Both the position numbers and the translations under genes were made by a program. 64,000 nt of DNA from an uncultured Isoptericola sp. (GTDB taxonomy: Bacteria > Actinomycetota > Actinomycetes > Actinomycetales > Cellulomonadaceae): the NCBI GenBank assembly GCA_947497265.1, contig CANMFP010000001.1, positions 310,001 through 374,000 of the forward strand. The letters run 5' to 3'. This document shows positions 1 through 49,093 of this stretch, one piece after another. The notes below the pieces were generated by a model, which made no database searches, was not told the origin of the DNA, and saw only the letters and a program-made list of their open reading frames with translations. Position 1 is the stretch's first letter. Each line of letters opens with the position of its first letter.

Positions 1-754
1 AGTCGTTCCACGTCCAGATGAAGGTGAAGATCGCCGTGGTGGCCAGCGCCGGCAACGACAGCGGCAGCATGATCTGCAGGAAGATCCGGCCGTGCCCGCA
101 GCCGTCCAGGCGGGCGGCCTCGTCCAGCTCCTTCGGCAGCCCACGGAAGAACTGGACCATCAGGAAGATGAAGAACGCGTCCGTGGCCAGCAGCTTGGGG
201 ACGATGAGCGGCAGGAACGTGTTGATCCACTGCAGCTCGGAGAACAGGATGTACTGCGGCACGATGATCACGTGGATCGGCAGCATGATCGTCATGAGCA
301 TGATGGCGAACCAGATGGGGCGGCCGCGGAACTTCAGCCGGGCGAAGGCGTAGGCCGCCATGGAGCACGAGATCAGGTTCCCCACCACGGAGCCCAGCAC
401 GATGATCGCCGAGTTGAGCAGGTAGTGGTGGAACGGGTGCAGGAGCGCGTTCCAGCCCTCGCCGTAGTTCGAGAGGTCGATCGCGCTGGGGATCAGGCCC
501 GGTTCGCGGAAGATGATCTCGTTCGGCTTGAACGAGCTCGAGAGCATCCACAGCAACGGGTAGAGCATGATCAGCCCGAAGCCGATCAGCATGACGTGCT
601 TGAGCACTCGACGGACCCGGGGGCCGGCCTTGCGGCGGTGGGGGGCGTCGGGCACCTGGGCGGCGACCTCGGACAGCGACCGGCGTTCCCGGACAGGGGT
701 CCGCGTCGCCGTCGGCTCGGTGTGTGCGTCGGGGCGCACCGGGGTGTCAGTCAT
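1..754 (-). CDS. Sugar ABC transporter permease, MalG/LacG type (C-terminus cut by window edge)
   Basis: Inner-membrane subunit of a CUT1-type sugar importer. The EAA-loop sequence DEAARLDGCGH, which docks on the ATPase, is read near the window start, and hydrophobic segments fill the visible part. The C-terminus lies outside the window. The ATG at 754 overlaps the stop of the MalF-type permease upstream by 8 bases, so the two are translationally coupled. The solute-binding protein is not seen in this window, and no ATPase is adjacent; such systems often use a shared MsiK-like ATPase encoded elsewhere. Substrate is unknown, but the neighbouring LacI-DUF6807 and Gfo/Idh genes point to a plant sugar or glycoside. 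Confidence 0.9.
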   Translation of the reverse strand, partial: MTDTPVRPDAHTEPTATRTPVRERRSLSEVAAQVPDAPHRRKAGPRVRRVLKHVMLIGFGLIMLYPLLWMLSSSFKPNEIIFREPGLIPSAIDLSNYGEGWNALLHPFHHYLLNSAIIVLGSVVGNLISCSMAAYAFARLKFRGRPIWFAIMLMTIMLPIHVIIVPQYILFSELQWINTFLPLIVPKLLATDAFFIFLMVQFFRGLPKELDEAARLDGCGHGRIFLQIMLPLSLPALATTAIFTFIWTWND

Positions 755-1670
755 CGTAGAAGACCCAGAACTTGGAGGCGAGGAAGTTGACGGCGGTCAT
801 GCCGGCGACGATGAGGAGCAGGAACCAGGCCATCGCCGAGGCGTACCCCATGTCGAACGACTTGAAGCCGTTCTGGTACAGGTACAGCGTGTAGAAGAGC
901 GTCGAGTCGACGGGCCCTCCCGTGCCCCCGGAGACGATGAACGCCTGGGTGAACGACTGGAACGCCCCGATGAGCTGGAGCACCAGGTTGAAGAAGATGA
1001 TCGGGCTCAGCAGCGGGATCGTGATGTTGAAGAACTGCCGGAGCTTCGAGGCGCCGTCGATGGACGCGGCCTCGTAGTACATGGCCGGGATCTGCCGCAG
1101 ACCGGCCAGGAAGATGATCATCGGTGCGCCGAACGTCCACACGTTGAGGACCATCAGCGTGCCCAGCGCGTAGTCGGGGTGCGACACCCAGCCGTACCCC
1201 TCGATGCCGAAGTACGCGAGGACCTGGTTCACCAGGCCGTCCGCGCCGAACACCTGGCGCCACAGCAGCGCGATGGCCACCGAGCTGCCGAGCAGCGAGG
1301 GAAGGTAGTAGACCGACCGGTAGATCGCGAGGCCGCGCAGGCCGCGGTCGAGGACCATCGCCAGGCCGAGCGCCGCCATGAGCTGCAGCGGCACCGAGAT
1401 GAGGACGTAGCGCAGCGTGACGCTCAGGGACTGCATCCACCGCGGGTCGTCGAACATCCGCTGGTAGTTCTCGATCCCGATCCAGCTCGGCGACTCGAGC
1501 AGGCTGTAGTCGGTGAACGACAGGTACAGCGAGGCGAGCAGAGGGAATGCAGTGATCAGCCCGAGCCCCACGAACCAGGGGGCAAGGAAGATCGCGGCAG
1601 CCTTGCCGTCACCCTTGCGCGTCTCGCGGCTCGCACCGCGGGTCTTGGCGACCTCTTGCATCACGGACAC
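747..1670 (-). CDS. Sugar ABC transporter permease, MalF/UgpA type
   Basis: 307-residue inner-membrane permease, partner of the MalG-type protein that follows it. It has about six hydrophobic segments (first at residues 25-50, FLAPWFVGLGLITAFPLLAS) and the EAA loop (YYEAASIDGASKLRQF). The GTG at 1670 is chosen because GGAGG sits seven bases upstream; ATG at 1661 is an alternative. It closely resembles the permease at 50739-51734, so the window holds parts of two related importers. Two AACCGGTT-centred sites lie in the 250-base gap to the divergent LacI-type gene, suggesting control by that regulator. Confidence 0.92.
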   Translation of the reverse strand: MSVMQEVAKTRGASRETRKGDGKAAAIFLAPWFVGLGLITAFPLLASLYLSFTDYSLLESPSWIGIENYQRMFDDPRWMQSLSVTLRYVLISVPLQLMAALGLAMVLDRGLRGLAIYRSVYYLPSLLGSSVAIALLWRQVFGADGLVNQVLAYFGIEGYGWVSHPDYALGTLMVLNVWTFGAPMIIFLAGLRQIPAMYYEAASIDGASKLRQFFNITIPLLSPIIFFNLVLQLIGAFQSFTQAFIVSGGTGGPVDSTLFYTLYLYQNGFKSFDMGYASAMAWFLLLIVAGMTAVNFLASKFWVFYDD

Positions 1671-1768: not shown

Positions 1769-1781
1769 GGAAACCGGTTGC
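1769..1781. promoter_or_regulatory. LacI-type operator, GGAAACCGGTTGC
   Basis: Partly palindromic site with an AACCGGTT core in the gap between the divergent ABC permease operon and the LacI-DUF6807 gene. The same 13 bases occur in reverse complement at 40223-40235, before the rhamnose-region LacI gene. This spacing and symmetry are typical of LacI-family operators; which protein binds is inference. Confidence 0.6.
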
Positions 1782-1803: not shown

Positions 1804-1816
1804 GGAACCGGTTTCC
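1804..1816. promoter_or_regulatory. LacI-type operator, GGAACCGGTTTCC
   Basis: Second AACCGGTT-centred site, its centre 34 bases from the one at 1769-1781. Paired operators about three helical turns apart in a divergent promoter region suit cooperative or looping repression of both transcription units. Confidence 0.6.
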
Positions 1817-1921: not shown

Positions 1922-3889
1922 ATGCCCGGCGCGAAGACACACCGTCCTGCGGTGACCATCGCCGATGTCGCGAGAGCGGCCGGCGTCTCCCGAGCGACGG
2001 TGTCGCGCGTGATGAACGGCCGCAGCACGGTCGATCCCGCGATCTCGGCCCGCGTGCAGGAGGCCGCGATCGACCTGAGCTACCGGCCGAGCATCGTGGC
2101 GCGCAGTCTCTCGCTCGGGCGCACGACGACGGTCGCGCTCGTCGTCCCCGACCTCGGCAACCCGGTGTTCCAGCAGATCCTCGGCGGCGTCTCGTCGGCC
2201 GCCGGCGAGGACGGCTACCGCGTGCTCGTCGCGGACTCGGCCGAGGACCCGAGCGCCGAGGCGGCGATCGCCCGCGAGGCCCGGCACCGCTGCGACGCCC
2301 TCATCCTCGTCTCCCCGCGGATGCCCGACGCCGCCCTCGACGCCCTGCTCCCGGAGGTGACCCCCGCCGTCGTCATCAACCGCGAGGTCGCCGGCGGCGC
2401 GCCCAGCCTCGTCGTCGACTACGTCGACGCGGCCGTCCAGGTCGTCGAGCACCTCGTCGAGCTGGGCCACCGGCGGATCGCCTACCTCGCCGGACCCGTG
2501 GCCTCCGTCTCCGACCGTGCCCGACGGCGCGGGCTCGCCGTCTGCGGCGAGCGGCACCCGGACCTGGAGATCGTCGAGCTCACGGCCGGCTCCGACATCG
2601 CGGCAGGCCACGCCGCCGCGCCCGCCGTCCTCGCCAGCCGCGTCACCGCGGCCGTGGCGTTCAACGACCTCGTCTCGTTCGGGCTGCTCGCAGCCCTCAA
2701 CGAGGCGGGCGTCGCCGTACCCACGGACATCTCCGTGTGCGGCTTCGACGACATCGAGCTCGCCCGGTACGCCACACCGGGACTGACCACCGTCGCCGTC
2801 CCCCAGGAAGAGCTGGGACGGCATGCCTGGAGGGAACTGCACGCCGTGATCGACAACACCGCGAGCGCCGCGGAGGCGACGCGATTCGGCGTCCGGCTCG
2901 AGGTGCGGTCCAGCACCGGGCCGGTGCCGCGGACCGCCGCACACGCCGAGACGCCGGTGGAGACGCCGTCCGCCCCGGCGCCCCACAAGACCCCGGAGCG
3001 GCAGGCCGAGCAGGCGCCGGCCTGGACCCTGGAGAACGGCGTGCCGGTGCTCCGCCGCGCCGCCGACCACGTGGCGCTCTCCCGCTACGAGTCCGGCAAA
3101 GGGCTCCCCACCATCCACTCCCCGCGGCCCTACCTGCACCCGGTCCACTCGCTGGCCGGGGTGCCGCTGACCGAGTCGGGCCCGGTGGACCACCGCCACC
3201 ACTACGGGGTGAGCATCGCCGTCGCGGACGTCAACGGCACCAGCCACTGGGGCGGGCGCACGTACGTGACCGACGTCGGCCCCACGCTCCTGCCCAACCA
3301 CGGCCGGCAGACGTCGACCAGCACCGTCGTCGACCCCCTGTCGCCGAATCTGCTGCTCGACACCGTCGTGTGGACCGACGAGCACGGCGAGCCGCAGCTC
3401 GACGAGCGTCGCCGCATCGGCGCCCGGCTCCTCGAGGACGGCTGGGCGCTCGAGTGGCGCTCGACGCTGCACGCCGCGCACGGCCCGCTGGAGATCCGCT
3501 CCCCCGCCACGAACGGGCGCCCCGGTGCCGGCTACGGCGGGGTGTTCTGGCGGCTGCCGATCACGGCGTCGACGCGGGTGCTGTCGGCCGACGGCGAGGG
3601 CCAGGACCAGGCGCACGGGTCGACGTCGCCGTGGGTGGCTTTCGTCCAGCGGCACCGTGACGCCCGTGGCGGCGAACGGACCACGACGACGCTGCTCACC
3701 CAGACCTCCCCCGCGCGCCACTGGTTCCTCCGGTCGGAGGAGTACCCCGGCGCCTGCCCGGCGCTGGCCTGGGACACGCCGCTGCACGTCCCGGCCGGCG
3801 GAACCGTCGAGACCGGCGTCGTCGCCGCGATCATCGACCGTGAGCTCGACGCCGGCGAGGCGGCAACGCTCGCCACCGGCCTGCGCTGA
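1922..3889 (+). CDS. LacI-family regulator fused to a DUF6807 (PmoA-like) domain
   Basis: 655 residues, about twice the usual LacI length. Residues 10-60 are a LacI helix-turn-helix and hinge (IADVARAAGVSRATVSRVMN). Residues about 65-335 are a periplasmic-binding-protein-like sensor ending in the usual LEVRSST strand. A Pro/Ala/Glu-rich linker (about 338-370) leads to a DUF6807 domain at about 375-650 with SPRPYLHP near 399-406, DHRHHYG, and TNGRPGAGYGG near 528-538. The same motifs appear in the stand-alone DUF6807 protein at 44431-45480. The frame is open throughout and GGAGG precedes the ATG, so the fusion looks genuine. It is divergent from the ABC permeases and 25 bases before a Gfo/Idh gene. 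A trigger-enzyme or second-sensor role for the DUF6807 part is inference. Confidence 0.9.
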   Translation: MPGAKTHRPAVTIADVARAAGVSRATVSRVMNGRSTVDPAISARVQEAAIDLSYRPSIVARSLSLGRTTTVALVVPDLGNPVFQQILGGVSSAAGEDGYRVLVADSAEDPSAEAAIAREARHRCDALILVSPRMPDAALDALLPEVTPAVVINREVAGGAPSLVVDYVDAAVQVVEHLVELGHRRIAYLAGPVASVSDRARRRGLAVCGERHPDLEIVELTAGSDIAAGHAAAPAVLASRVTAAVAFNDLVSFGLLAALNEAGVAVPTDISVCGFDDIELARYATPGLTTVAVPQEELGRHAWRELHAVIDNTASAAEATRFGVRLEVRSSTGPVPRTAAHAETPVETPSAPAPHKTPERQAEQAPAWTLENGVPVLRRAADHVALSRYESGKGLPTIHSPRPYLHPVHSLAGVPLTESGPVDHRHHYGVSIAVADVNGTSHWGGRTYVTDVGPTLLPNHGRQTSTSTVVDPLSPNLLLDTVVWTDEHGEPQLDERRRIGARLLEDGWALEWRSTLHAAHGPLEIRSPATNGRPGAGYGGVFWRLPITASTRVLSADGEGQDQAHGSTSPWVAFVQRHRDARGGERTTTTLLTQTSPARHWFLRSEEYPGACPALAWDTPLHVPAGGTVETGVVAAIIDRELDAGEAATLATGLR

Positions 3890-3914: not shown

Positions 3915-5063
3915 ATGACGAACGCCCGCATCGCCGTCGTCGGCATCCACGGACACGGCGAGAAGCACGTCCGGCACGCGCTCGAGCTCGGGGACACCGG
4001 ACGAGCGCGGCTGTGCGCCGTCGTCGACCCGCGCGAGCCCGTCGAGGGGCACGCGGCGCACGGCACGGGGACCTCCTGGTTCCCCACGCTCGGCGACCTG
4101 TTGTCCTCCTCCGACCCGGACGTCCGGCCCGACGTCGTGGTCCTGTGCACGCCCATCCCGACGCACCTGCCGCTGGCCAAGGCCGCGATGGAGGCGGGCA
4201 TCGACGTGCTGCTGGAGAAGCCGACGGCGGCGTCGCTCGCCGAGCTCACCGAGCTCGTCGCGATCAGCGACCGCACGGGACGGCTGTGCCAGGTGGGCTT
4301 CCAGACGTTCGGCTCGCACGCGCTCGACGCCGTCGGCGAGCTGGTCGCCCGCGGTGAGATCGGCGACGTCGTCGGCTACGGCGCGGTCGGGACCTGGGTG
4401 CGCGACGCCGCGTACTGGGCCCGCTCGTCCTGGGCCGGACGGCGCCGCCTCGACGGGCGCGACGTCGTCGACGGCGTCGTGACCAACCCGCTGGCGCACG
4501 CCGTGGCCACCACGCTGCGCATCGGCGGGGTGACGCGGGCCGAGGACGTCGCGTGGGTGGACACCGACCTGTACCGCGCGAACCCGATCGAGTCGGACGA
4601 CACGTCGTCGGTGCGCGTGACGGCGGCGGACGGGACGCGCTACGGGTTCGGGCTGACGCTGTGCGCGTCCGAGCGGGGCACCGCCCACGTGCTGGTGATC
4701 GGCACGGAGGGCGAGATCGAGCTCCAGTACGAGCACGACCGGCTCGTGCTGCGCAGCGGCCGGGTGACGATGGACAAGTCGTACGGCCGCACCCCGCTGC
4801 TGGAGGACCTGCTGGACGTCCGCGCCTCCGGCGATCCCCAGCGCACCCTGCTCTGCGACGTCCGGGACACCGGTGCGTTCATGCGGGTGCTCGAGGCCGT
4901 GCGCACCGGGCCCGACCCGCGTGTCGTGCCCGCCGGCGCCGTGACCTGGGTCGGCGAGGGCGACGCCCGGCGCCCGGTGGTCCAGGACGTCGAGTCGTGG
5001 TGCGAGCAGGTGGCCCGCACGCAACAGACGTTCACCGAGCTCGGAGCCCCCTGGACCCACTGA
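3915..5063 (+). CDS. Gfo/Idh/MocA-family NAD(P)-dependent oxidoreductase
   Basis: 382 residues. The N-terminal Rossmann fold begins IAVVGIHGHGEKH and the family's active-site EKPTA motif is near residue 96. The C-terminal alpha/beta domain would hold the sugar. Family members oxidise sugars, inositols or glycosides, or their 3-keto forms. It starts 25 bases after the LacI-DUF6807 gene on the same strand and is probably co-transcribed with it. The same DUF6807 plus Gfo/Idh pairing recurs at 44.4-46.6 kb. Substrate unknown. Confidence 0.88.
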   Translation: MTNARIAVVGIHGHGEKHVRHALELGDTGRARLCAVVDPREPVEGHAAHGTGTSWFPTLGDLLSSSDPDVRPDVVVLCTPIPTHLPLAKAAMEAGIDVLLEKPTAASLAELTELVAISDRTGRLCQVGFQTFGSHALDAVGELVARGEIGDVVGYGAVGTWVRDAAYWARSSWAGRRRLDGRDVVDGVVTNPLAHAVATTLRIGGVTRAEDVAWVDTDLYRANPIESDDTSSVRVTAADGTRYGFGLTLCASERGTAHVLVIGTEGEIELQYEHDRLVLRSGRVTMDKSYGRTPLLEDLLDVRASGDPQRTLLCDVRDTGAFMRVLEAVRTGPDPRVVPAGAVTWVGEGDARRPVVQDVESWCEQVARTQQTFTELGAPWTH

Positions 5064-9204: not shown

Positions 9205-12200
9205 TCAGCACTCGCCGACCTCCTCCCAGGGGCCCCACGGGCTCGCGCCCGGCTCCTGGTTCCGGGTCCACCACTTCGCCTGCCAGAGCGTGCCGTCGTG
9301 CACGGCCTGGTCGCCCTCGGTGAAGATGCGGGTCGCCGTCCACGGCGCACCGCACTCCGGCGCGGGCTCGCCGGCCGGGCCGATCTCCTGCCAGGCACCC
9401 CACGGCGACGATCCGGGCTCCTCGCCCTTCGTCCACCACAGCGCCTCGAAGAGCGCACCGTCGTGCTCCACACGGTCGCCCGCCGTGTAGGTCGCGTCCG
9501 CGGTCCAGGCGTCCGGGACCTCGACGACGACGTCGCCGGGCTCGGCGTCCGTGGTGTACGCCAGGCGCGGGGCGTCCGGCGTCTCCATGCCCTCGCCGAT
9601 GAAGTACGAGGTGTGCGGCGGCTGGTTGTAGCCCGTGTTCTGCCAGGCCACGGCCAGCCGGTACTGCGAGTCCGACATGAGCGTGCGCAGGCGATGCTCG
9701 GTGGGGATCACCGTTGTCGCGACCCGCAGAGCGGTCGAGTCCTCGGTCCGGGTGACGATCTCCTCGCGCCAGTCACCGAAGAGGTCCGCCTGGAGCGCCG
9801 GCGTGCCCTTGGTGCCGTTGTTCGAGAGCGTGCCCTCGGCCCGGTAGATCTCGACCTCCTCGGCGTTCTCGTAGTCCCACTTCGAGATCGTCGGCACCCC
9901 GGTGGAGGTGTCGGCGTCCCAGTCGTGGTCGCCGATCTCGGTCAGCAGGTCCCCGTCCCAGAAGGTCAGGAAGTTCGCCGCGGGGATGCTCTGAGCGACG
10001 AGCTCGCCCGACGCGGACTTCAGCTGGCCCACCGGCGAGTCCCACGCGGCGTCCCCGCCGACGGCCCAGCCCTCCGCGCCGTCGTGGCGCGGGTCGATGT
10101 CGCCCATGGCGGCACGGCCCGTGTCCCGCTCGGCCGGGATCGACCAGATGATCTCCCCGGTCCCCGCGTCGCGCAGGGTCGCCCCGACGTCGCCCGAGCT
10201 CCCCAGGTCCTCGTGGGCGGAGAACACCTCCTGCCCGTCGCGCGAGGGGTCGAAGTCCGAGACGTGCTGTGCGTCCCCGTGCCCGAGCCCGGTGTTGTAG
10301 AGCACCGTGCCGTCGTCGTCGAGCGTCATCGAGCCGTAGAGGACCTCGTCCTTCTGGTCGCCGTCGACGTCGGCCACCGCCAGGGAGTGGTTCCCCTGCC
10401 CGCGGTGCTCGTCACCCGCGACGTCGGAGTCGAAGACCCACCGCTGGGTCAGCTCGGCGCCGTCCCAGTCGAAGGCCGCCACCACCGTCCGCGTGTAGTA
10501 GCCGCGGGCGAACAGCATCGACGGGCGCTCACCGTCCAGGTAGGCGGTGCCCGCGAGGAACCGGTCCACGCGGTTGCCGTAGGTGTCGCCCCACGAGCCG
10601 ACGTCGCCGCGTGGCGGCACGTAGTCGATCGTGTCGAGCGCGACGCCCGTGGCGCCGTCGAACACCGTGAGGTACTCGGGACCGGAGAGCACGTAGCCGC
10701 CCGAGGTGCGGAAGTCCGCCCGCTCGTCCCCGATGACCGTGCCGTCCGCGTCGGTGGTGCCGTCGGCGGTCTTCGTCGCCACCTCGGCCTGGCCGTCGCC
10801 GTCGTAGTCGAACACCTGGAACTGGGTGTAGTGCGCGCCCGAGCGGATGTTGTGCCCGAGGTCGATGCGCCACAGCCGGGTGCCGTCGAGCTCGTAGGCG
10901 TCCAGGTAGGTGTTGCCGGTGTAGCCGCCCTGCGAGTTGTCCTTCGCGTTGGACGGGTACCACTTGACGACGTACTCGTACTCCCCGTCGCCGTCGAGGT
11001 CGGCCACGGAGGCGTCGTTCGCGGAGTAGGTGTACGGCTGGCCGTCCTCGGTGTAGCCGTCCTCCGGCTTGTCCAGCGGGATGTCCAGCGTCTGGGCGTC
11101 CCGCACGGCGAACTCGTCGGTGGCCCACCGCTCGGTGCCGTCGACGACAGCGGAGACCCGGTACGTGGAGTCCGTGGCGCCGTCCGCGTCCACCAGGTTG
11201 GTCGACCCGGCGACCGGTTCGTCGGTGAGGCGCTCGCCGTCCCGGTAGACGTGGAACGCGACGTCGTCGGCGTCGTCGCCCAGCATGCGCCAGCCCACGT
11301 AGACACCGTCCTCGGAGACGGCCGCCACGGGCTGACGCCCGGTGCGCTCGGTCTGCCGCGCCAGCTGGGTGACGGCCTCGGACGTCACCGGCTCGGAGAG
11401 CGCGGAGACGCCGCCGGCGTTCACCGACGCCACGGCGTAGGTGTACCCGACGGTGGTGAGCACGTCCGTGTCGACGTGCTGCGCGTCCGCGGCGCGGTCG
11501 AGCAGCACCATCTCACCGGCGGGGTCGGCCCGGTACACGTGGTAGAACAGCGCGTCGTCGACCGGCTCCCAGCTCAACGCCACGGAGTGCTTCTCGATCT
11601 CGCCCACGGCCAGGCCCGACGGCGTCGCCGCGGTCGCGACGTCGTCGTCCACCGTGGTGAGCTCGACGGCGTTGGACGCGACCGACTCGTTGCCCGCCGC
11701 GTCGAGCGCGACGACCGTGTAGGTGTAGCGCAGGCCGACGTCCGCCGTCGTGTCGACGTAGGACGTGTCGCTCACGTCGTCGAGCGCCGTCGGCTCGGCG
11801 GCGCCCTCCGCGAGGCGGTAGACGCGGTAGCCGGCGACGTCCTGCGCGGGCTCCCACGCCAGCGGCACGGAGACGTCCGAGCCGTCGATCGTCACGTCGC
11901 CGGAGGTCAGGTCCGTGGGCGCGTAGAGCAGGGCCGTGATCTCCAGGCCGTTCAGCCAGCCGTCGGCGACCACGTCGATGGTGCCGTCGGTGACCACGAC
12001 GGGCTGGACGATCTTGCTGGACGTGCCGCCGCGGCCGGCGTTCGAGGAGCCGTGGTCCGTGCCCTCGATCGTCACGCCCAGGCGTGCCGTGCCGATCAGG
12101 TCGCCCCAGACGACCTCGACGGCGTAGGTGCCGTTCGGGACGTCGAACCGCATCGGGTGGTCCGGACCCGGCAGGAGGAAGTCTCGCTGCAGGTCGTCCA

Positions 12201-14709
12201 GCGCGCCGTCACCGGTGCCGCGGTCGCGGCCGCCCGGTCCGGCGTCGGAGGTGAAGCCGTGGCCCAGCTCCTCGGTGTACAGCGTGGTCTCGTCGAACGC
12301 CGTGTAGCCGTCCTTCGTCGGGTTCCCGGCGAGCTGCACGTCGAACTTCATGAGCGGCGCCTTGGTGGTGACGCTCACGGTGGCCGACGGCGCGGAGTCG
12401 CCTCTCCCGTTGACGGCCACGACGCGCAGGTCGTAGGCCGTGCCCTCCTCGAGCCCGGTCACCTCGGCGACCCCGATCGTGGAGGTGGTCACCAGGTCGA
12501 AGTCTTCGTCCGGCGCGGCGGACGCCTTGGCGTACACCTTGTAGATGTCCGCCCCGTCCACCTCGGTCCAGCTGAGGGTGACGCTGGACGCGGAGACGTT
12601 CCCGGCGACGACGCCGGCCGGCAGGCCCGGCACCTCGGCCGGCGGTTCGGCGTCGGCGACCTCGTCGGCGAGCGGGACGTCCAGCGCGGCGGTGTCCAGG
12701 GCCACGAGGCGCGCCATCTGGATGGCGCCGTACTCCTGGAAGTGCGTGTCGTCCGTCGTGCCGTCCGGCCGGTTCGGGTAGACGCCGGCGGGCACGTGCA
12801 GGAACACGCTCTTGGCCTCCTCCGGTCCGATCTCGTCCAGGTAGGCCCGCGACGAGGCGGACAGGTCCACGAGCGGCGTGCCGGTGTCCGCCGCGACCCG
12901 GGTCGCGGCGTCGACGTAGTCCGGGAAGGAGACGTCGAACGTCCCAGTGTCCGCGTCGAAGGATCGGCGCGAGACCGGCGTGACGACGATCGGCTGCGCG
13001 CCGCGCTGGACGGCGCCGTCGATGAACGTCTGCAGGTACCAGCAGTAGTCGCCCGGCGCGGCCCAGCGGTCGTCGACGCCGTAGCTGTTGTCGTTGTGGC
13101 CGAACTGCACGTACAGGTAGTCGCCCGGGCGGATCTGGGTGAGCACCTCGTCGAGACGTCCCTGGCTGATGAAGTTCTTCGAGGACCGGCCGCCGATGGC
13201 GTGGTTGTCCACCAGGACGTCGTCGGACAGGTAGCGCTCGATCATCTGCCCCCAGCCGGCCTGCGGTGCCCAGTACTGGTCGTACGTCTGGACGGTCGAG
13301 TCGCCGGTGACGAACACCGTCGGCCGGTCGGCCGCCTCGCGCTCGTCCGCGCGGGTGATGGTGAGCGCGTTGAGGTTCGCCGCACCCCCGGCGATCTGCA
13401 GGTTGAGCTGCCCGTCGACGAGCGCGACGTCGAACTCCATCTCGAGGAGCTCGCCCGCGGCCTTCTCGGTCTGCTGCACCTTGGCCATCTGCTCGGCGGT
13501 GACCGCCACGTCGGTGGCACCCTCGGTGTCTCCGGCGACCAGGCTGACCGTGTAGTCGCCGTTCGGCAGGTCGACGACGAGCTCGCCGCCGTCGGCCGTG
13601 ACGAAGTCTCCCCGCAGGTCGTCGCCACCGCGGTCGGTCGCCGTCACCACGGAGGTGTCGACGAACCCGAGCCGGTTCTCGGCGTCGTAGGCGGTGTCCG
13701 CGTCGACGCCGACGGCGTCACCGGCCACGGCGCCGGAACCCAGGTCGATCTGCAGCGTGCCGCTCTCGGGGAAGTCCGGTTCGCTCGCGAGGGTGCCGAC
13801 GGCGGGTGCCGACGCGTCGGTGGTGCCGTCAGGTGTGACGGCGTGCACCCGGTAGTAGCTCACGGCGGAGGTGTCGGCGCCGGGGTCCGCGGCGTAGACC
13901 TCGCGGGCGGCGGTCGTGGCGACCTCGGTGTACTCGCCGTCGACGGCGTCGCTGCGGGTCAGGACGTAGCCGGTGGCGCCGTCGACCTCGTTCCAGCGCA
14001 GGACGAGCTCGCCGTCGTCCGCTGCCGCGACGCGCAGGTTCTGCGGGCCGGGCGTGCCGTCGCCCTCGCTCGGGTCGGTGGTGCCGCCGTCGTCGTCGCC
14101 GTCGCCCGTGTCGTCGGCGACCTGGGTGACCACGATGCCGTTGACGTAGCCGTAGCCCTTGCCCGTGATGCCGAGGTCCAGGCGGCCGTCGGTGACCTCG
14201 ACCGTCAGCGTGCCGCTGTTCGTCTGCTCGGCGTCGGCGGTGATGTTCGTGCCCTCCTCACCCTCGGGGGCGACGGTGGTGCGCACGCTGGAGGTGCCGG
14301 CGAGCGTGTCGCCGGTCCAGACCTCGACGTCGTAGGTGCCGTCCGGCACGTCCACGGCGAACGCCCAGTCAGCCCCGAGCACGAAGTCGCCGGCGAGGGG
14401 GTCGACGTCGGTCGACCGGTCCCGGGCGTCGACGTCGCCGGAGGTGATGCCGAACCCGGTCTCCTCGGCGTAGGCCGTGGTGGGGTCGACGCGGTCGTAG
14501 CCCTCGGCGACCGGGCTGTCGGGTGTCCCGAAGTCGAAGGCCCACGCAGGGGCCTCATCGGCCTGGGCCGCGCTGGGCAGCAGCGGCAGCACGAGCGCTG
14601 CGGCGGCCGCGCCGGCCACCCAGCGGGCCCGTGGCGGTGGTGGAGTGGTCGATCGGTGCCGGTAAGCGCTTTCACGTTCGGTACGCGAGAGCCTGGCGGG
14701 CTGCTGCAC
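9205..14709 (-). CDS. Secreted multidomain rhamnogalacturonan acetylesterase-like (CE12) plus rhamnogalacturonan lyase (PL11)
   Basis: 1,834 residues. Signal peptide about 1-50, ending PSAAQA. Malectin/CBM35-like domains start FDFGTP (about 55-200), about 316-450 and MKFDVQLAGN (about 786-930). FnIII modules lie at about 223-315, 700-785, 940-1020 and 1035-1115. An SGNH esterase spans about 463-685 with GDSTV, the GGRSS block, GHNDN and the DDTHF Asp/His. A PL11 lyase spans about 1120-1706 (YTYSANDASVADLDGDGEYE, repeated DxDGDG calcium-type loops). Two CBM5/12 modules end the protein (AGDRVEHDGALFEALWW; EGDQAVHDGTLWQAKWW). It would bind the cell wall, remove acetyl groups and cleave the rhamnogalacturonan I backbone. 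The GTG start has GAGG eight bases upstream. Confidence 0.93.
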   Translation of the reverse strand: MQQPARLSRTERESAYRHRSTTPPPPRARWVAGAAAAALVLPLLPSAAQADEAPAWAFDFGTPDSPVAEGYDRVDPTTAYAEETGFGITSGDVDARDRSTDVDPLAGDFVLGADWAFAVDVPDGTYDVEVWTGDTLAGTSSVRTTVAPEGEEGTNITADAEQTNSGTLTVEVTDGRLDLGITGKGYGYVNGIVVTQVADDTGDGDDDGGTTDPSEGDGTPGPQNLRVAAADDGELVLRWNEVDGATGYVLTRSDAVDGEYTEVATTAAREVYAADPGADTSAVSYYRVHAVTPDGTTDASAPAVGTLASEPDFPESGTLQIDLGSGAVAGDAVGVDADTAYDAENRLGFVDTSVVTATDRGGDDLRGDFVTADGGELVVDLPNGDYTVSLVAGDTEGATDVAVTAEQMAKVQQTEKAAGELLEMEFDVALVDGQLNLQIAGGAANLNALTITRADEREAADRPTVFVTGDSTVQTYDQYWAPQAGWGQMIERYLSDDVLVDNHAIGGRSSKNFISQGRLDEVLTQIRPGDYLYVQFGHNDNSYGVDDRWAAPGDYCWYLQTFIDGAVQRGAQPIVVTPVSRRSFDADTGTFDVSFPDYVDAATRVAADTGTPLVDLSASSRAYLDEIGPEEAKSVFLHVPAGVYPNRPDGTTDDTHFQEYGAIQMARLVALDTAALDVPLADEVADAEPPAEVPGLPAGVVAGNVSASSVTLSWTEVDGADIYKVYAKASAAPDEDFDLVTTSTIGVAEVTGLEEGTAYDLRVVAVNGRGDSAPSATVSVTTKAPLMKFDVQLAGNPTKDGYTAFDETTLYTEELGHGFTSDAGPGGRDRGTGDGALDDLQRDFLLPGPDHPMRFDVPNGTYAVEVVWGDLIGTARLGVTIEGTDHGSSNAGRGGTSSKIVQPVVVTDGTIDVVADGWLNGLEITALLYAPTDLTSGDVTIDGSDVSVPLAWEPAQDVAGYRVYRLAEGAAEPTALDDVSDTSYVDTTADVGLRYTYTVVALDAAGNESVASNAVELTTVDDDVATAATPSGLAVGEIEKHSVALSWEPVDDALFYHVYRADPAGEMVLLDRAADAQHVDTDVLTTVGYTYAVASVNAGGVSALSEPVTSEAVTQLARQTERTGRQPVAAVSEDGVYVGWRMLGDDADDVAFHVYRDGERLTDEPVAGSTNLVDADGATDSTYRVSAVVDGTERWATDEFAVRDAQTLDIPLDKPEDGYTEDGQPYTYSANDASVADLDGDGEYEYVVKWYPSNAKDNSQGGYTGNTYLDAYELDGTRLWRIDLGHNIRSGAHYTQFQVFDYDGDGQAEVATKTADGTTDADGTVIGDERADFRTSGGYVLSGPEYLTVFDGATGVALDTIDYVPPRGDVGSWGDTYGNRVDRFLAGTAYLDGERPSMLFARGYYTRTVVAAFDWDGAELTQRWVFDSDVAGDEHRGQGNHSLAVADVDGDQKDEVLYGSMTLDDDGTVLYNTGLGHGDAQHVSDFDPSRDGQEVFSAHEDLGSSGDVGATLRDAGTGEIIWSIPAERDTGRAAMGDIDPRHDGAEGWAVGGDAAWDSPVGQLKSASGELVAQSIPAANFLTFWDGDLLTEIGDHDWDADTSTGVPTISKWDYENAEEVEIYRAEGTLSNNGTKGTPALQADLFGDWREEIVTRTEDSTALRVATTVIPTEHRLRTLMSDSQYRLAVAWQNTGYNQPPHTSYFIGEGMETPDAPRLAYTTDAEPGDVVVEVPDAWTADATYTAGDRVEHDGALFEALWWTKGEEPGSSPWGAWQEIGPAGEPAPECGAPWTATRIFTEGDQAVHDGTLWQAKWWTRNQEPGASPWGPWEEVGEC
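14662..14673. promoter_or_regulatory. Operator-like GTAAGCGCTTTC inside the start of the CE12-PL11 gene
   Basis: Eleven of twelve bases match the perfect site at 6501-6512. It lies about 36 bases inside the coding region from GTG 14709. An operator here could block elongation, or the true start may lie further downstream. Confidence 0.45.
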
Positions 14710-14792
14710 GGTTCACCTCGTCGTCTCGTCGTTGAGTCCGGCTCGGGGCCGGGGGCGCGCGCCTCGTCGGTGAGGCCTGTTGGATGGGTTTA

Positions 14793-14806
14793 ATGAATGG
14801 ATTCAA
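14793..14806. promoter_or_regulatory. Candidate rhamnose-regulon operator ATGAATGGATTCAA
   Basis: Differs by two bases from the inferred consensus TTGAATCGATTCAA. It lies between the divergent CE12-PL11 and LacI genes, 84 bases before the lyase start. Related sites lie at 39939, 41426, 49094 and 53164. Confidence 0.55.
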
Positions 14807-14937
14807 TCGCGCGTCGTCGCTATGATGCCTGCTCCGCGCCGCGGTGTCCAGGGGGAACGAGTCCGCCGACCCGGGGGGGCGATAGCGTGTGCCCACGCGA
14901 GCGGCGACCGCGAGCGGCGACGGCACAGGAGGATCGG

Positions 14938-15954
14938 ATGGCGAGCGACCACCGCCCCACGCTGGCCACCGTCGCCCGCGCTGCCGGGGTCAGCCTCAAG
15001 ACCGCGTCGCGGGTGATGAACGACGAACCGCACGTGGCGCCGGGCACGCGCGAGCGGGTCCGCGCCGCCGCGCTCGAGCTCGGGTTCCGCCGCAACGCCG
15101 CCGCCGCGGACCTGGCTCGCGGCGGCCGAGCACCCCTCGTGGGGTTCGTGACGGCGGACATCGCGAACCGGTTCTTCGCCTCGGTCGGCGCCGGGATGGA
15201 GCAGGGCCTCCAGGGCAGCGGCTACCAGCTCGTGACTGCCAGCTCCGGCGAGGACGCGGTGCGCGAACGGCAGCTCACCGAGGCGTTCCTCGAACGGCGG
15301 GTCGCCGCGCTCGTCATCGCGCCGACGGACGTCGACCACCGCTACCTCGCGCGCGAGGTGGACGACGGCCCGCCCGTCGTCCTGGTGGACCGCCCCGCAC
15401 CCGGGATCGAGGCGGACACCGTCGTCATCGACAACGAGGGCGGCGCCCGCCAGGCGGTGGACCACCTCGTGGCGCACGGGCACCGGCGCATCGCCCTGGT
15501 GGGCGACCATGCCCGCCTCTGGACCGCGCAGGAGCGCCGCCTCGCCTTCCTGCGCGCGATGGCCGAGCACGGTCTGGCCGTGCCGGGGAGCCGGCTCCGG
15601 GAGGGTGCGTACGACGCGGCAGCCGCGCAACGGCTGGTGGCCGAGCTGCTCGACGACGCGGACCCGCCCACGGCGTTGGTGACCGCGAACAACCGGATCA
15701 CCGTGGGCGCCCTCCACGTGCTGCACGCGCGCCGCACGGCCGGGGCGAGCATCCCGGCGCTGGTCGGGTTCGACGACTTCGAGCTCGCCGACCTGCTCGG
15801 CGTCACGGTGGTCGCCTACGACATGGCCGAGATCGGGCGTCAGGCGGCGTTCCTCGCCCTGGAGCGGACGGCGGACCCCACGCTGCCCGCGCGGCGGCGG
15901 ACCGTCCCGACCCGGCTCGTCCCGCGGGGCTCCGGCGAGGTGCCGCCCGCCTGA
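14938..15954 (+). CDS. LacI-family transcriptional regulator
   Basis: 338 residues. N-terminal helix-turn-helix LATVARAAGVSLKTASRVMN (about 7-26), then a ligand-binding domain with the usual EVDD, DNEGGARQAVDHL and FDDFELADLL features. ATG 14938 is chosen for its AGGAGG ribosome site; the open frame extends upstream but that part is proline/arginine-rich and lacks family similarity. It is divergent from the CE12-PL11 gene and 145 bases before the AGE-epimerase gene, either of which it may control. Ligand unknown. Confidence 0.9.
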   Translation: MASDHRPTLATVARAAGVSLKTASRVMNDEPHVAPGTRERVRAAALELGFRRNAAAADLARGGRAPLVGFVTADIANRFFASVGAGMEQGLQGSGYQLVTASSGEDAVRERQLTEAFLERRVAALVIAPTDVDHRYLAREVDDGPPVVLVDRPAPGIEADTVVIDNEGGARQAVDHLVAHGHRRIALVGDHARLWTAQERRLAFLRAMAEHGLAVPGSRLREGAYDAAAAQRLVAELLDDADPPTALVTANNRITVGALHVLHARRTAGASIPALVGFDDFELADLLGVTVVAYDMAEIGRQAAFLALERTADPTLPARRRTVPTRLVPRGSGEVPPA

Positions 15955-30973: not shown

Positions 30974-31139
30974 CTGCACCCCCCGGGACTTGATTGCTTG
31001 GACCCCCAAGGGTAACGTCCCGCCGGCACTCCGCCGTCAGACCCCGGAACCAAGTCGGCCTCTCGCTCGTCAGACAGGACGGCCCGCCGGCCGTTTCCCG
31101 TCCGGCGGGCCACCACGCGTCCCCCTCAGGAGAGCACCG

Positions 31140-37408: not shown

Positions 37409-38361
37409 CAGGAGCTCCGGGGAGGTTCGGGTCGGATCGGTGGTTCGTGGGTCGTGCCGACGAGCCCGTCGACGGTGAGCCAGGCGGCCATGCGGGCGAG
37501 GCTGCGCGCGCAGCCGGGATGCTCCGGGTCGTTGAGGTGACCGTGGAACGTGCCGTCCTCGCGGACGAGGTGGACGTCCGTGCCGGCCGCCGCGAGCTCG
37601 GCGGCGTACGCCTCGCCGGAGGACCGCAGGGCGTCGTGGTCGGAGTTGACGATCATCGTCGGCGGCAGCCCGCGCAGGTCCGCCCCGCCGGGGAACGCGT
37701 ACGGCGACCCCGACCCGCGCCGGTGGCCCAGGTAGTTGGCGTTCATCGTGCGCACCACGTCCGGGGGGAAGTCGCGCCCCTCGGGCAGCGCCGCGATCTT
37801 CTCCGCCAGCTCCGGGCTCGGCGTCGGCAGCGCCTCGTGCAGCACCGGGTAGGCCAGTACCACGCTGCGCGGCGTCGGGCGCTCCGCGGTGCCCGACGGC
37901 GGCACGGAGGTCGTGCCGGCGGGCTCGGTCGCGTCGTCGCGCAGGCGCAAGGACACCCCGGCGGCGAGGTTGCCGCCGGCGCTGGCACCGCCGAGGGACC
38001 ACGTGCCGGACGGTACGCCGAGGCCCGTCTCGACCGCCCAGCGGAACACGAAGGCGAGCTCGTCGTGCGCCACCGGGAACCGGACGCCGCCGGCCTCGAC
38101 GGGGGCGTCGACGTCGTCCCGGTCGACCTCCGGGCACAGCCGGTAGTCCACGCTCACCACGGCGACACCGCGCCCGGCGAGCGTGCGCGCGACGTGGTCG
38201 GCCTCCGCCATGTCGAGGTCACCGTGCATGAACCCGCCGCCGTGCGCCCAGACGAGCCCTGCGACGCAGGTGACGCCGTCCGGCACCGGGTAGAGGCGGA
38301 CAGGGAGGTTTCCGTGGGGGCCGTCGAGGACCCGGTCCGTGATGGTCATGGCGCCGATCAT
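37408..38361 (-). CDS. Alpha/beta hydrolase (HSL-type esterase) within the rhamnose operon
   Basis: 317 residues. Oxyanion motif HGGGFMHG near residues 40-47, nucleophile elbow GGASAGG near 123-129, Asp in NSDHDALR and His in TFHGHL. This is the hormone-sensitive-lipase esterase family. Its place between rhaI and rhaD, with overlapping starts at both ends, suggests a role on rhamnose-linked substrates, for example removal of acetyl groups from imported rhamnogalacturonan fragments. That substrate is inference. Confidence 0.88.
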   Translation of the reverse strand: MIGAMTITDRVLDGPHGNLPVRLYPVPDGVTCVAGLVWAHGGGFMHGDLDMAEADHVARTLAGRGVAVVSVDYRLCPEVDRDDVDAPVEAGGVRFPVAHDELAFVFRWAVETGLGVPSGTWSLGGASAGGNLAAGVSLRLRDDATEPAGTTSVPPSGTAERPTPRSVVLAYPVLHEALPTPSPELAEKIAALPEGRDFPPDVVRTMNANYLGHRRGSGSPYAFPGGADLRGLPPTMIVNSDHDALRSSGEAYAAELAAAGTDVHLVREDGTFHGHLNDPEHPGCARSLARMAAWLTVDGLVGTTHEPPIRPEPPRSS

Positions 38362-43699: not shown

Positions 43700-44434
43700 T
43701 CAGGCGAGCGGCCAGGTGCGCAGGCGGCCGCACATGCCGTAGCGCCGGGGACCGTCGGCCGCGTCGGCGACCGCCACGCGGCCCTCGTCCAGCGTGACCG
43801 CCGAGGCGTCGGCCAGCGCCTCGAGGGCGGCGTCCGTCTGACCGGCCGCCTGGCCGACCGACGCCTCCCAGGTCTCCCGCCATCCGGCCGTGCGAGGAGC
43901 GACGAGCCGCGCCGCGGCGTCGCGCAGCGGGTCCAGCGCGGCCGGACCGTGCTGCCCGACGGCGTCCCGCAGCGCCGCGTAGCCCGCGAGCGCCAGGTCA
44001 CGCCGTGCGAGGGCGGCTGCCGCCACGTCGCCGTCGGCCGCTCCGTCCTCCAGGCGGGGCAGCGCCGCGGCCCGCTGGTACCGGTCGGCGTCGGCGACGA
44101 CGTCGGCGGGGAACGTGATGACCGCGTCCCCGGCCTCCGGCAGCCCGGCGTTCGACATCACCACGAGCACCTCGAGCCCGCCCCCGTTCACCGCGCGGTG
44201 CACGACCCCGGGGCCGAACCAGACGATCCGCCCCGGCGCCAGGTCGTGCACGGCGAAGCCGTCCGGGCCCAGCGTCTCCACCCGGCCGCTGCCGGCAAGA
44301 GTCACGTAGGCCTCGGTGGACGTGGTGTGCAGGTGCGGCGACCCGCTGCCCTGCGGGGCGTCGGGCGCCGGCCAGTCGTAGACCTGCAGATGGCTGACCG
44401 AGGTCCCGCCGGGGAAGACGGGCAGTGCCGTCAC
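43700..44434 (-). CDS. Cupin-domain protein of the DUF6807 operon
   Basis: 244 residues. A cupin barrel occupies about 1-110, with metal-ligand candidates in SPHLHTTSTEAY and GVVHRAV. The rest is alanine-rich helix of unknown role. It may be a sugar isomerase, lyase or sensor. GTG start overlaps the DUF6807 gene stop (GTGA). Last gene of a three-gene operon with a Gfo/Idh oxidoreductase. I do not recognise a specific function. Confidence 0.8.
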   Translation of the reverse strand: MTALPVFPGGTSVSHLQVYDWPAPDAPQGSGSPHLHTTSTEAYVTLAGSGRVETLGPDGFAVHDLAPGRIVWFGPGVVHRAVNGGGLEVLVVMSNAGLPEAGDAVITFPADVVADADRYQRAAALPRLEDGAADGDVAAAALARRDLALAGYAALRDAVGQHGPAALDPLRDAAARLVAPRTAGWRETWEASVGQAAGQTDAALEALADASAVTLDEGRVAVADAADGPRRYGMCGRLRTWPLA

Positions 44435-45480
44435 GCCCGGCTCGCCGGCTGCTCGGCGGGATCGACGTGCCCGGGCTCGAGCACGTCACCCTCACCGGCG
44501 AGCACCTGCCGGCCGAGCGCGGCGAGCTCGACGGCCCGGGCGCCGTCGGACTCGCCGTCGGCGATCACGACGGCGTACGTGAAGCGCAGCGTGGCACCGG
44601 CGGGGAAGGGGACCTCCTCGCTGAAGAAGGGCGCGGGGCACACGCACGCGAACGGTTCGGAGCGCACGAACCACTGCGGCGTGCCACCGGGGTTGGTGCC
44701 GGGGTCGACCATGAGCACGGTGGAGGCCCGTGAACCGCCCTGCTGCTCGTCGGCCCGGACGGCCCCGGGGGCCGCGCCGTCGTGCCGGCCCACGAACCCC
44801 AGCCACTCCGCCCGCAGGCCGCGAGCGTCCTCGGCGTCCGCGACCGTGCCGGCACCGTCCTCGCCGGGCAGCAGCACGCGCCCCCCGGTGAACGATCGCG
44901 GCCCGCGCCAGAACAGGCCGCCGTAGCCCGCGTTCTCACGGCCGTTGGTCGTCGGGCTGCCGATGTCGAGCGCGCCGTCGGAGACGTTGGTCATCACGGA
45001 CGTGAACGTGAGCACCCACGCGTCGGGCGTCGACTCCGGCAGGAGGACCTGCACGGTGCGCTCCTCACGGACCACGACGTCGCCCCGGACGGCGCTGCCG
45101 TCCGGTCCCGTCGTCGCCGGGGTGCGCCAGGACAGCTCCTCGACGAACCCGCAGGGTCCGACGGCGGTGAACTGCTCGTGCTCCATCGAGCCGTCGTTGT
45201 GCAGGTCGACGTAGCCCTGCTCGCCGTGCACGTAGTTCGGGCCGCCCCAGAAGTTCCACGGCCCTACGTGCGGGAGCGACCATGCGATGCCCTTGTGCCA
45301 CACGTGGTCCCACGGCCGGTACGCGGAGACCACCGCGCCGTCGCGGGTACGCAACGGGTGCAGGTAGGGTCGCGGGCTCTCGTACGCGACGTCGTCGGGC
45401 CGGTACACGTACGTGAAGAGGTCGACGTCGCCGCGCGAGCCCGTCATCGCGCTGCGGTCGCTGTTCAGAGTGACGCTCAT
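44431..45480 (-). CDS. DUF6807 (PmoA-like) family protein
   Basis: 349 residues. Carries SPRPYLHP at 35-42, WDHVWHKGIAW near 57-67 and SPTTNGRENAGYGGLFWR near 180, all matching the C-terminal half of the LacI fusion at 1922-3889. Despite the Pfam nickname it is unrelated in role to methane monooxygenase. The histidines in the first two motifs could form an active site. No signal peptide is seen. It overlaps both neighbours by four bases, so it works with the Gfo/Idh enzyme and the cupin. Reaction unknown. Confidence 0.88.
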   Translation of the reverse strand: MSVTLNSDRSAMTGSRGDVDLFTYVYRPDDVAYESPRPYLHPLRTRDGAVVSAYRPWDHVWHKGIAWSLPHVGPWNFWGGPNYVHGEQGYVDLHNDGSMEHEQFTAVGPCGFVEELSWRTPATTGPDGSAVRGDVVVREERTVQVLLPESTPDAWVLTFTSVMTNVSDGALDIGSPTTNGRENAGYGGLFWRGPRSFTGGRVLLPGEDGAGTVADAEDARGLRAEWLGFVGRHDGAAPGAVRADEQQGGSRASTVLMVDPGTNPGGTPQWFVRSEPFACVCPAPFFSEEVPFPAGATLRFTYAVVIADGESDGARAVELAALGRQVLAGEGDVLEPGHVDPAEQPASRA

Positions 45481-46625
45481 GCGGTGGCCTCCTGAGCCGG
45501 GACGTCCTTGACCGGGGGCCACGGTGCCCCCCTGCCGCCCATGCTGTCGTAGAACGGGTCGCCCGCGGTAATCTGCCCACGGACGACGGGCTCCCCCGTG
45601 AACGCGGAACGGTAGATCGCGGCCGCCAGCTCGAGCGTGCCGCGGGCGTCCGCCACCGTGATCGGCGGCGCCTGGCCGCCCACCAGCGCGCGATAGGTGG
45701 GCACGAGCTGGGCGAGGTGGCCCGAGCGTCCGCCGTCGACGGGCTCGCCCGCCGCGGCCACGTCGTCGGCCCACGCCTGAACGGATTCCTCCGAGCCGGG
45801 AGCCGCCGTGACGCGCCACGCCGCGTCGTCGTACCCGTAGAGGTGGTCGAGCTCGACGGTGGCGCGCTCCGTGTCGAACCGCAGTGACGAGGTCTCCCGC
45901 GGGGACAGCAACGAGTTGGTGATGGTGGCCATCGCACCCGAGGCGAACCGGACCATCGCCATCGACACGTCCTCGGTGTCGACGTCGCGAGCGAGACGGC
46001 CGGCCATCGCCCGGACCTCGGTCCACTCGCCCAGGATCGACAGCAGCAGGTCGAACTGGTGGATGCCGTGGCCCATGGTGGGGCCACCGCCCTCGGTGTC
46101 GAAACGGCCGCGCCACGGCACCTCGAAGTACGACGGCGGGCGGAACCAGAGGGTGTCGCACCGCGCGACGAGGGGCCGGCCCAGCGCGCCCTCGTCGAGG
46201 AGACGGCGCAGGCGCACGGCACCCGCCCCGAAGCGGTGCTGGACGATCTGCGTGAACCGGGCACCGCCCGTCGCGGCGCGCTCGGCCTCGGCCAGGGTGT
46301 CGATCTCGGCCAGGGAAAGCACCGCCGGCTTCTCCACGACCACGTGCACGCCGGCGGCCAGCGCGGCGCGAGCCTGCTCGAGGTGCAGCGACGGCGGGGT
46401 GCACACGTGCAGCACGTCCACCTCGCCCGTGGCGAGGAGCGCCGCCAGGTCCGTGCCGTGGCGGGCGACGCCGTGCCGGGCCGCGAACTCCTCGGCCCGG
46501 ACCGGGTCGACGTCCACCACCCCCGTGAGCTCGACGCCCTCCAGGCCGTCGTGCTGCGCCAGCGATCGCACTGCGTCGGCATGGGCGTGCGCGATCGCGC
46601 CCGCCCCCAGGATGCTCACCCTCAT
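45477..46625 (-). CDS. Gfo/Idh/MocA-family oxidoreductase of the DUF6807 operon
   Basis: 382 residues. Rossmann motif VSILGAGAIAHAHAD, EKPAVLSLAEI near residue 95, and active-site block GGGPTMGHGIHQFDLLL near residue 178. First gene of the Gfo/Idh-DUF6807-cupin operon. ATG 46625 is preferred; GTG 46634 is possible. It probably interconverts a sugar and its keto form. Lying between GH42 and PL11 genes suggests a pectin-derived substrate, which is inference. Confidence 0.9.
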   Translation of the reverse strand: MRVSILGAGAIAHAHADAVRSLAQHDGLEGVELTGVVDVDPVRAEEFAARHGVARHGTDLAALLATGEVDVLHVCTPPSLHLEQARAALAAGVHVVVEKPAVLSLAEIDTLAEAERAATGGARFTQIVQHRFGAGAVRLRRLLDEGALGRPLVARCDTLWFRPPSYFEVPWRGRFDTEGGGPTMGHGIHQFDLLLSILGEWTEVRAMAGRLARDVDTEDVSMAMVRFASGAMATITNSLLSPRETSSLRFDTERATVELDHLYGYDDAAWRVTAAPGSEESVQAWADDVAAAGEPVDGGRSGHLAQLVPTYRALVGGQAPPITVADARGTLELAAAIYRSAFTGEPVVRGQITAGDPFYDSMGGRGAPWPPVKDVPAQEATA

Positions 46626-46727
46626 GGGTCCCACTCTTTCAGTCGTGTCGTTCAGGTGACCAGCCAGGACGGGCGCGGGGCGGCCCCACGCCCGTCCTGG
46701 CGGATCGGTCGGCTCGGACGGGTCAGG

Positions 46728-49079: not shown

Positions 49080-49093
49080 CGCTCGCATCCTCC

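Follow-up and report, generated by a model that had tools for sequence, protein, structure and literature searches.

Architecture of the fusion protein

The window, i.e. the whole 64,000-nucleotide stretch of DNA analysed here, encodes a 655-aa protein (1922..3889, + strand) in which a LacI-type repressor and a DUF6807 domain are joined in a single open reading frame, and comparison of related sequences indicates that the domain fused to LacI most probably functions as an enzyme of the pathway. To the reading of this protein as a bifunctional repressor-enzyme we give about even weight. An earlier note on this DNA had described such a fusion of two complete parts, which proved to be real and conserved. 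Indeed, the start ATG is preceded by GGAGG and the reading frame, linker included, is free of stops and frameshifts in the window sequence. The protein is composed of (i) a LacI-type helix-turn-helix domain (aa 12-57; 1955..2092, +; PF00356, E 6e-15), (ii) a periplasmic-binding-like effector core (aa 69-332; 2126..2917, +) matched by Peripla_BP_1 and by Peripla_BP_3 (PF13377, E 6e-34, aa 175-332), (iii) a linker predicted to be disordered (aa 335-361; 2924..3004, +; pLDDT <50 in the full-length model), and (iv) a DUF6807 domain (aa 381-651; 3062..3874, +; PF14100, E 6e-59), which scores 200 bits against a Pfam cut-off of 27 and covers profile positions 6-269 of 270. None of 25 family-invariant positions, defined from our own alignment rows and not from Pfam's, is changed in the window copy, and a D-H-R-H-H motif (aa 423-427; 3188..3202, +) is presumed from residue conservation to be part of the active site. 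Both halves of 42 aligned full-length fusions have many invariant residues. In the LacI core these include R201, N248 and D276, which we take to be equivalent to sugar contacts of E. coli LacI.

The full-length AlphaFold model shows two confident parts around the linker (mean pLDDT 84, pTM 0.54), in agreement with a probably flexible linker joining an intact LacI half to a DUF6807 domain that retains all 25 invariant residues. Modelled with its relatives' sequences, the DUF6807 part (mean pLDDT 93) is mostly beta, with a few short helices and one C-terminal helix. The label PmoA-like (methane monooxygenase subunit), which the earlier note had attached to this domain, was rejected, the model being mostly beta and no such family being found by Pfam, whose matches are DUF6807, LacI-type and general helix-turn-helix families in the fusion and only DUF6807 in the free protein described below. 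A PDB sequence search with both DUF6807 domains of the window returned no relative, the one match being at chance level (E 0.7). No NCBIfam model matched the free DUF6807 protein, and NCBIfam cut-offs were reached neither by the LacI half nor by the two Gfo/Idh proteins of the window. No match was found in plasmid records at E 1e-100.

The free DUF6807 protein (44431..45480, -; PF14100, E 7e-69, 233 bits) belongs to a separate subtype, termed RG-type, and overlaps by 4 nt the gene of its own Gfo/Idh partner, assigned by sequence and Pfam (45477..46634, -). The fused and free domains are 32% identical by BLAST and have SPRPYLHP and TNGRxxAGYGG in common, as had been pointed out before. These two proteins are the only PF14100 matches in the whole genome, in which no other copy of the fusion's DUF6807 subtype was found at E 1e-45.

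Conservation of the fusion

Named bacterial genomes were scanned with the DUF6807 half and the best 80 of 88 relatives were kept, the best matches being from Isoptericola, which makes this genus the probable source of the window. LacI and DUF6807 lie in one open frame in 79 of these 80 loci, which span 14 genera, 6 families and 3 orders according to NCBI names, and the one-frame fusion is therefore no assembly accident. The exception is L073, whose frame is broken inside LacI; among the 79 in-frame loci, L100 and L109 have a frame shift inside DUF6807 and L083 begins at its contig end. Fusion length, from estimated starts, is 614-717 aa in 77 of the 80 copies counted with the window's own, and the linker varies from 12 to 85 aa between the matched parts (80 copies, likewise from the best 80 of 88). 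The architecture is also present in many further genomes beyond the named loci. One relative (G205/L172) has its frame shifted between the LacI and DUF6807 halves.

Gene neighbourhood and operator-like sites

The fusion is part of a module consisting of a divergent sugar importer, often with a GD_AH-family dehydratase, followed by the fusion and a Gfo/Idh gene. The earlier note had already seen both the divergent importer and the Gfo/Idh genes next to the fused and free DUF6807 proteins, and these observations hold. In the window, a Gfo/Idh/MocA dehydrogenase gene (3915..5063, +; PF01408, E 1e-18), the probable operon partner, follows 25 nt after the fusion stop, and two ABC importer permeases (both PF00528) are divergent from the fusion (747..1670, -, and 2..754, -), the second running off the window edge. 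Beyond the left window edge, the genome encodes a solute-binding protein (C1:308382-309758) and a GD_AH-family dehydratase (C1:306630-308357); the identification of the latter as galactarate dehydratase was discarded, its score being below the cut-off (380 vs 731). Among the best 80 of 88 relatives, 58 of the 78 with sufficient downstream sequence have a Gfo/Idh gene at most 400 nt after the fusion, and 55 of the 75 with upstream DNA have a divergent permease there. A GD_AH-family dehydratase is found upstream at 29 loci at least, a lower bound since about 7 kb upstream were covered at most. The Kribbella loci have neither a following Gfo/Idh gene nor a divergent permease.

Two operator-like sites AACCGGTT, detected by motif count and already noticed earlier, lie upstream of the fusion (1772..1779 and 1806..1813, without strand assignment), 34 bp apart. 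The motif occurs 5 times in the window for 0.18 expected, and a pair separated by 20 to 45 nucleotides (AACCGGTT-N20-45-AACCGGTT) occurs once in the window's genome, between importer and fusion, so that the locus looks like a local, self-regulated system. These predicted sites are CG-centred palindromes near the regulator's own gene, like the operators of LacI/GalR regulators. In 72 of 80 copies (the window's own and 79 loci from the best 80 of 88 relatives), the 350 bp preceding the LacI start contain at least one AACCGGTT, compared with a mean of 0.22 in single-base shuffles; 46 of the 80 have two sites 34-35 or 45-46 bp apart and 26 have a single exact site. The distant solo fusions (i.e. 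LacI fusions without an adjacent Gfo/Idh gene) of groups f86, f84 and f107 are mostly devoid of AACCGGTT in their short flanks and so may bind another sequence. Single sites are also found in the window at 15166, inside a LacI gene (14797-15954), 32795 and 40225, and may belong to other LacI regulators.

Other arrangements of DUF6807 and phylogeny

DUF6807 domains were searched in overlapping genome samples from the phylum (396 genomes), the order (396) and the class (394); loci were taken for nearly all matches to about E 1e-40 and for some weaker ones, and their neighbours were sorted by BLAST. From the 273 rows found, near duplicates, places met more than once and most of the named loci were removed before the tree was built, which left 167 domains, two of them the window's own; in this quick tree 43 of 163 inner branches are open. 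These 167 rows comprise 35 LacI-fused domains followed by Gfo (the window copy being counted twice, also as L113), 36 LacI-fused without Gfo, 37 in the order Gfo-then-DUF, 20 in the order DUF-then-Gfo, 14 fused to Gfo, 6 with a separate LacI upstream (including L172, counted there because of its frame break), 15 of RG-type and 4 others. The fusion's DUF6807 subtype is thus a free gene beside Gfo/Idh in 57 of the 167 rows. Fusion of Gfo/Idh and DUF6807 in one protein was confirmed with Pfam for L132/L145, L197 and L256, and at L123 a LacI gene, identified by Pfam, precedes a separate DUF6807 gene with an ATGA overlap. Since DUF6807 is found free beside Gfo/Idh, fused to it, or next to a separate LacI, it appears to accompany the dehydrogenase whatever else is joined to it. 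The RG-type rows, with the free protein of the window among them, group in a single clade (support 100); the LacI-fused, LacI-separate and DUF-then-Gfo rows are all contained in a 99-row clade (support 94), with L258 as the sole exception. The Gfo/Idh-fused state, seen at L132/L145, L197, L204, L207, L246, L248-L250, L253-L257 and L263, requires three changes on the tree.

At E 1e-45, an ortholog of the Gfo protein is present in 12 of 15 genomes of the family that have DUF6807 and in none of 15 that do not. In the three DUF6807 genomes lacking it (G129, G160 and G210), the LacI-fused domain has lost H424 and R533. Relatives of Gfo (E 1e-40) occur away from the fusion in 14 of 16 genomes picked mainly for solo fusions, G129 being one of them.

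Second LacI-DUF6807 paralogs with an intact active site and no adjoining Gfo were observed at L106, L107, L112, L212 and L289-L293; the other copy in the genomes of the first four is a Gfo-linked fusion (L043, L040, L044 and L163), a second copy is also present in the genomes of L289-L293, and no AACCGGTT lies within 350 bp at L106, L107 and L112. Another solo fusion, carrying H427Q (L275, genome G832), is found near an FGGY kinase, a 3-hydroxyisobutyrate-dehydrogenase-like protein, another Gfo/Idh and a Mem_trans transporter, and this neighbourhood is possibly a new regulon.

Conservation and loss of the presumed active site

The 25 positions mentioned above were chosen without the LacI-fused rows, as those invariant in at least 98.5% of 71 non-LacI-fused subtype rows and in at least 90% of the 15 RG-type rows. 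At least one is changed in 3 of 34 LacI-fused domains with adjacent Gfo (P403S, P403A and W543C), in 24 of 36 without, and in 4 of the 71 defining rows, divergence at variable columns being alike in the two LacI-fused classes (0.61 and 0.66, respectively). A rank test on this contrast, which treats related rows as independent, gives p 6e-7. Among the 24 changed solo rows, six from group f84 deviate at W571 alone, and S527N is the single change of L084; R497 or R533 has also been lost in two of the 14 Gfo-fused rows. No non-LacI-fused (71), RG-type (15) or Gfo-linked LacI-fused (35) row has a change at D423, H424 or H427, and losses of these residues are confined to LacI fusions without adjacent Gfo/Idh. 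The strongest case is H427, which is Gln in 15 of the 36 solo fusions and His in every row of the other classes (35, 20, 37, 14, 6 and 15 rows). At 12 polar and aromatic positions, a subset picked after seeing the data, none of the 35 Gfo-adjacent LacI-fused copies (window copy counted twice) is changed.

A second, intact copy is encoded in the genomes of 13 of the 15 H427Q solo fusions. The proposal that the site is lost only where a second enzyme copy exists is nevertheless contradicted by the other two, G1124 and G1132, in which no second subtype copy was found at E 1e-20 (G1132 having a distant 118-bit match), and by G129, G131, G160, G161, G210 and G211, with one PF14100 match each. The absence of an adjacent Gfo/Idh gene explains the loss better than a second copy does, but not perfectly. 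Indeed, all 25 positions are kept in 12 of the 36 solo fusions, and 18 loci sampled later are in partial agreement: five of the nine solo fusions among them are intact and four have lost family-invariant residues (H424 and R533 in G160, G161 and G210; a gap at R533 in G211), and a single change (F602V) was seen in one of their nine Gfo-linked domains. Keeping these positions hence does not need an adjacent Gfo; at least 13 of the 17 intact solo copies come from genomes with another copy. Parsimony among LacI-fused rows requires three changes at H427 and four of the decayed state, and a paired test on the tree, with two to four pairs, is not significant. As the contrast stems from few events and intact solo copies exist, it is a pattern worth testing and not proof.

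Pathway context

The neighbourhood in the window includes rhamnogalacturonan genes, as indicated by annotated PL11 lyases (9208-14712 and 46728-49088, both -), a GH42 protein (41454-43526) and an L-rhamnose isomerase (38358-39524, -) scoring over its NCBIfam cut-off. The first PL11 frame (1835 aa) also contains GDSL esterase-like, fn3, galactose-binding-like and CBM5/12 parts. Amid this pectin-gene stretch, a phytochrome-type sensor (PAS_2, GAF, PHY) joined to a SpoIIE domain is encoded at 28733-31036 (-).

Two annotated clusters with the fusion's DUF6807 subtype are pectin clusters. At L147, a Streptomyces-type cluster in a 9-Mb genome, the genes around a separate Gfo-DUF6807 pair encode pectate lyases, a pectinesterase and a solute-binding protein, together with an IlvD/EDD dehydratase and a DHDPS-family protein; a pectate lyase is also present at L158. 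The IlvD/EDD protein of L147 (12152-14074, -), in this cluster with free DUF6807, exceeds the NCBIfam cut-off for L-arabinonate dehydratase (913 vs 882 bits), and a KdgD-like protein there is below its cut-off. An oxidative galacturonate route via KdgD is not claimed for the window's genome, where one DHDPS-family protein only is encoded. In group f86, GD_AH, DUF6807 and Gfo are together on one strand in the three loci looked at (L272-L274); RecG flanks them at L272 and L274, Fpg lies on the opposite side at L272, and YceD and alanyl-tRNA-synthetase-like genes surround them at L273. No pectin gene is found among the annotated Kribbella genes (L084). The partners that recur are thus a dehydrogenase and an importer, joined in several groups by a sugar-acid dehydratase; a uronic acid or some other sugar from pectin is the probable substrate.

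Proposed function and alternative explanations

The case for a working enzyme is that elsewhere the same subtype lies beside Gfo/Idh, is fused to it or overlaps a LacI gene by ATGA, and occurs in pectin clusters. We propose that the LacI half would keep both the importer operon and its own repressed for as long as no pectin-derived sugar or sugar acid is bound to the core, and that the DUF6807 half, the downstream Gfo/Idh and the GD_AH-family dehydratase would act on this same sugar, the DUF6807 half, with a perhaps mutarotase-like fold, possibly being a mutarotase, an epimerase or a lactonase. The fusion would tie the amount of enzyme to that of repressor, and the fused enzyme may make or consume the inducer locally. 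The simplest account of its origin is a joining of the LacI and DUF6807 genes of one operon. In some lineages without a Gfo/Idh neighbour, the presumed active site would then have decayed, and the extra domain could at most bind a ligand.

That the DUF6807 half senses pathway flux, as the earlier note had suggested, is a possibility only; an active pathway enzyme attached to a LacI core with its own effector pocket appears to fit better. A domain acting purely as a sensor would bind the pathway sugar without turnover and signal to the LacI half, the repressor then reading two ligands. H427Q, D423L/V and H424R with R533G/P persist in LacI-fused proteins, and the damaged L213, L238 and L281 still match both LacI and DUF6807 above cut-offs, so that the domain may serve a purpose there even with an incomplete family site; moreover, group f86, of the same order as the window, has a separate intact copy beside Gfo/Idh. 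For the window protein we nevertheless consider pure sensing unlikely, because the Gfo-adjacent copies are unchanged at the 12 polar and aromatic positions, its genome has no other subtype copy at the threshold given above and the LacI core keeps its own pocket residues. A non-catalytic role is suggested, from residue changes, only for relatives with a damaged DUF6807 site. It is clearly improbable, too, that two independent operon proteins were joined by loss of an overlapping stop for convenience, with co-expression as the only coupling. Such an origin would agree with the ATGA-overlapping pair of L123, with the disordered linker of 12-85 aa and with the broken frame of G205, but the fusion is present in three orders, and since a cell usually requires few molecules of a regulator but many of an enzyme, its retention seems to call for a reason.

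The C-terminal helix of E. coli LacI joins two dimers. DUF6807, also at the C-terminal end, might likewise join two LacI dimers holding both operators, its enzyme ancestry being irrelevant, and the paired AACCGGTT sites of 46 of the 80 copies (best 80 of 88) would suit such a module; however, one exact site only is found in 26 of the 80, and both the His, Arg, Trp and Glu positions common to free DUF6807 and the link with Gfo/Idh are left unexplained, which makes this a very unlikely account. An artefact of assembly or frame reading has next to no probability: frameshifts do occur inside the gene in three relatives (L073, L100 and L109), but none in the window, and the architecture is common to the 79 loci and the many further genomes. 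Returning to the bifunctional repressor-enzyme, a bolder version is tentative and rather doubtful, namely that a single protein acts as the repressor and also catalyses an essential step of an undescribed pectin-sugar route made up of importer, GD_AH-family dehydratase, DUF6807 and Gfo/Idh, and that its relatives preserve a series from separate genes through ATGA-coupled genes and active fusion to a decayed, sensor-only fusion. If true, the series would document in nature how an enzyme is converted into a signal-input domain of a LacI regulator. As a lead on DUF6807, the domain accompanies a single Gfo/Idh subfamily, to which several groups add a sugar-acid dehydratase or pectin genes. The free, dehydrogenase-fused and repressor-fused forms, intact and damaged, can be compared with one another, so that a transition from enzyme to sensor is directly testable.

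Comparison with known systems

To our knowledge, no reaction has been assigned to DUF6807. Incidental mentions only were found in the open-access literature searched: in the accessible parts of these papers, it appears only as a number in PMC10971088, as a PF14100 protein encoded together with two beta-galactosidases in a metagenomic operon in PMC5342196, and again in PMC10291797. The first ten Foldseek matches of the DUF6807 model have query TM scores of 0.25-0.43 and identities of 7-14%, and the first matches include GH94, GH36 and GalM (E 4e-4 to 3e-3). The predicted fold is thus, weakly, most like those of galactose mutarotase and of the GH94/GH36 sandwich domains, from which it differs by these low scores and identities, and a reaction of the mutarotase, epimerase or lactonase type can only be guessed at.

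In the open-access literature searched, as far as its accessible text goes, no description of a LacI-DUF6807 fusion was found; the architecture may well be already in Pfam's own architecture list. In the accessible text of a survey (PMC4052901), the LacI/GalR family is defined by two domains with a rigid domain structure, and neither "fused" nor "fusion" occurs; the LacI features of the fusion seem to fit this survey. Another study (PMC5882156) reports 25 companion domains for LacI/GalR, DUF6807 not being named in the part available. The fusion shares with LacI/GalR regulators the helix-turn-helix domain, the periplasmic-binding-like core, CG-centred palindromic sites near its own promoter and an adjoining importer, and differs from them by the extra DUF6807 domain of about 270 aa. 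With the DUF6807 (PF14100) proteins found beside Gfo/Idh, it shares the same full profile match, the 25 invariant residues and the dehydrogenase partner; DUF6807 is elsewhere free or Gfo/Idh-fused, whereas that of the window is repressor-fused. The nearest LacI case known to us is that of the LacI-ribokinase fusions, none of which is described in the titles or abstract beginnings returned by the literature search. Finally, trigger enzymes and regulator-enzyme fusions such as PutA, NadR and BirA are likewise DNA-binding regulators that are, or resemble, metabolic enzymes, and pair other domains than LacI and DUF6807.
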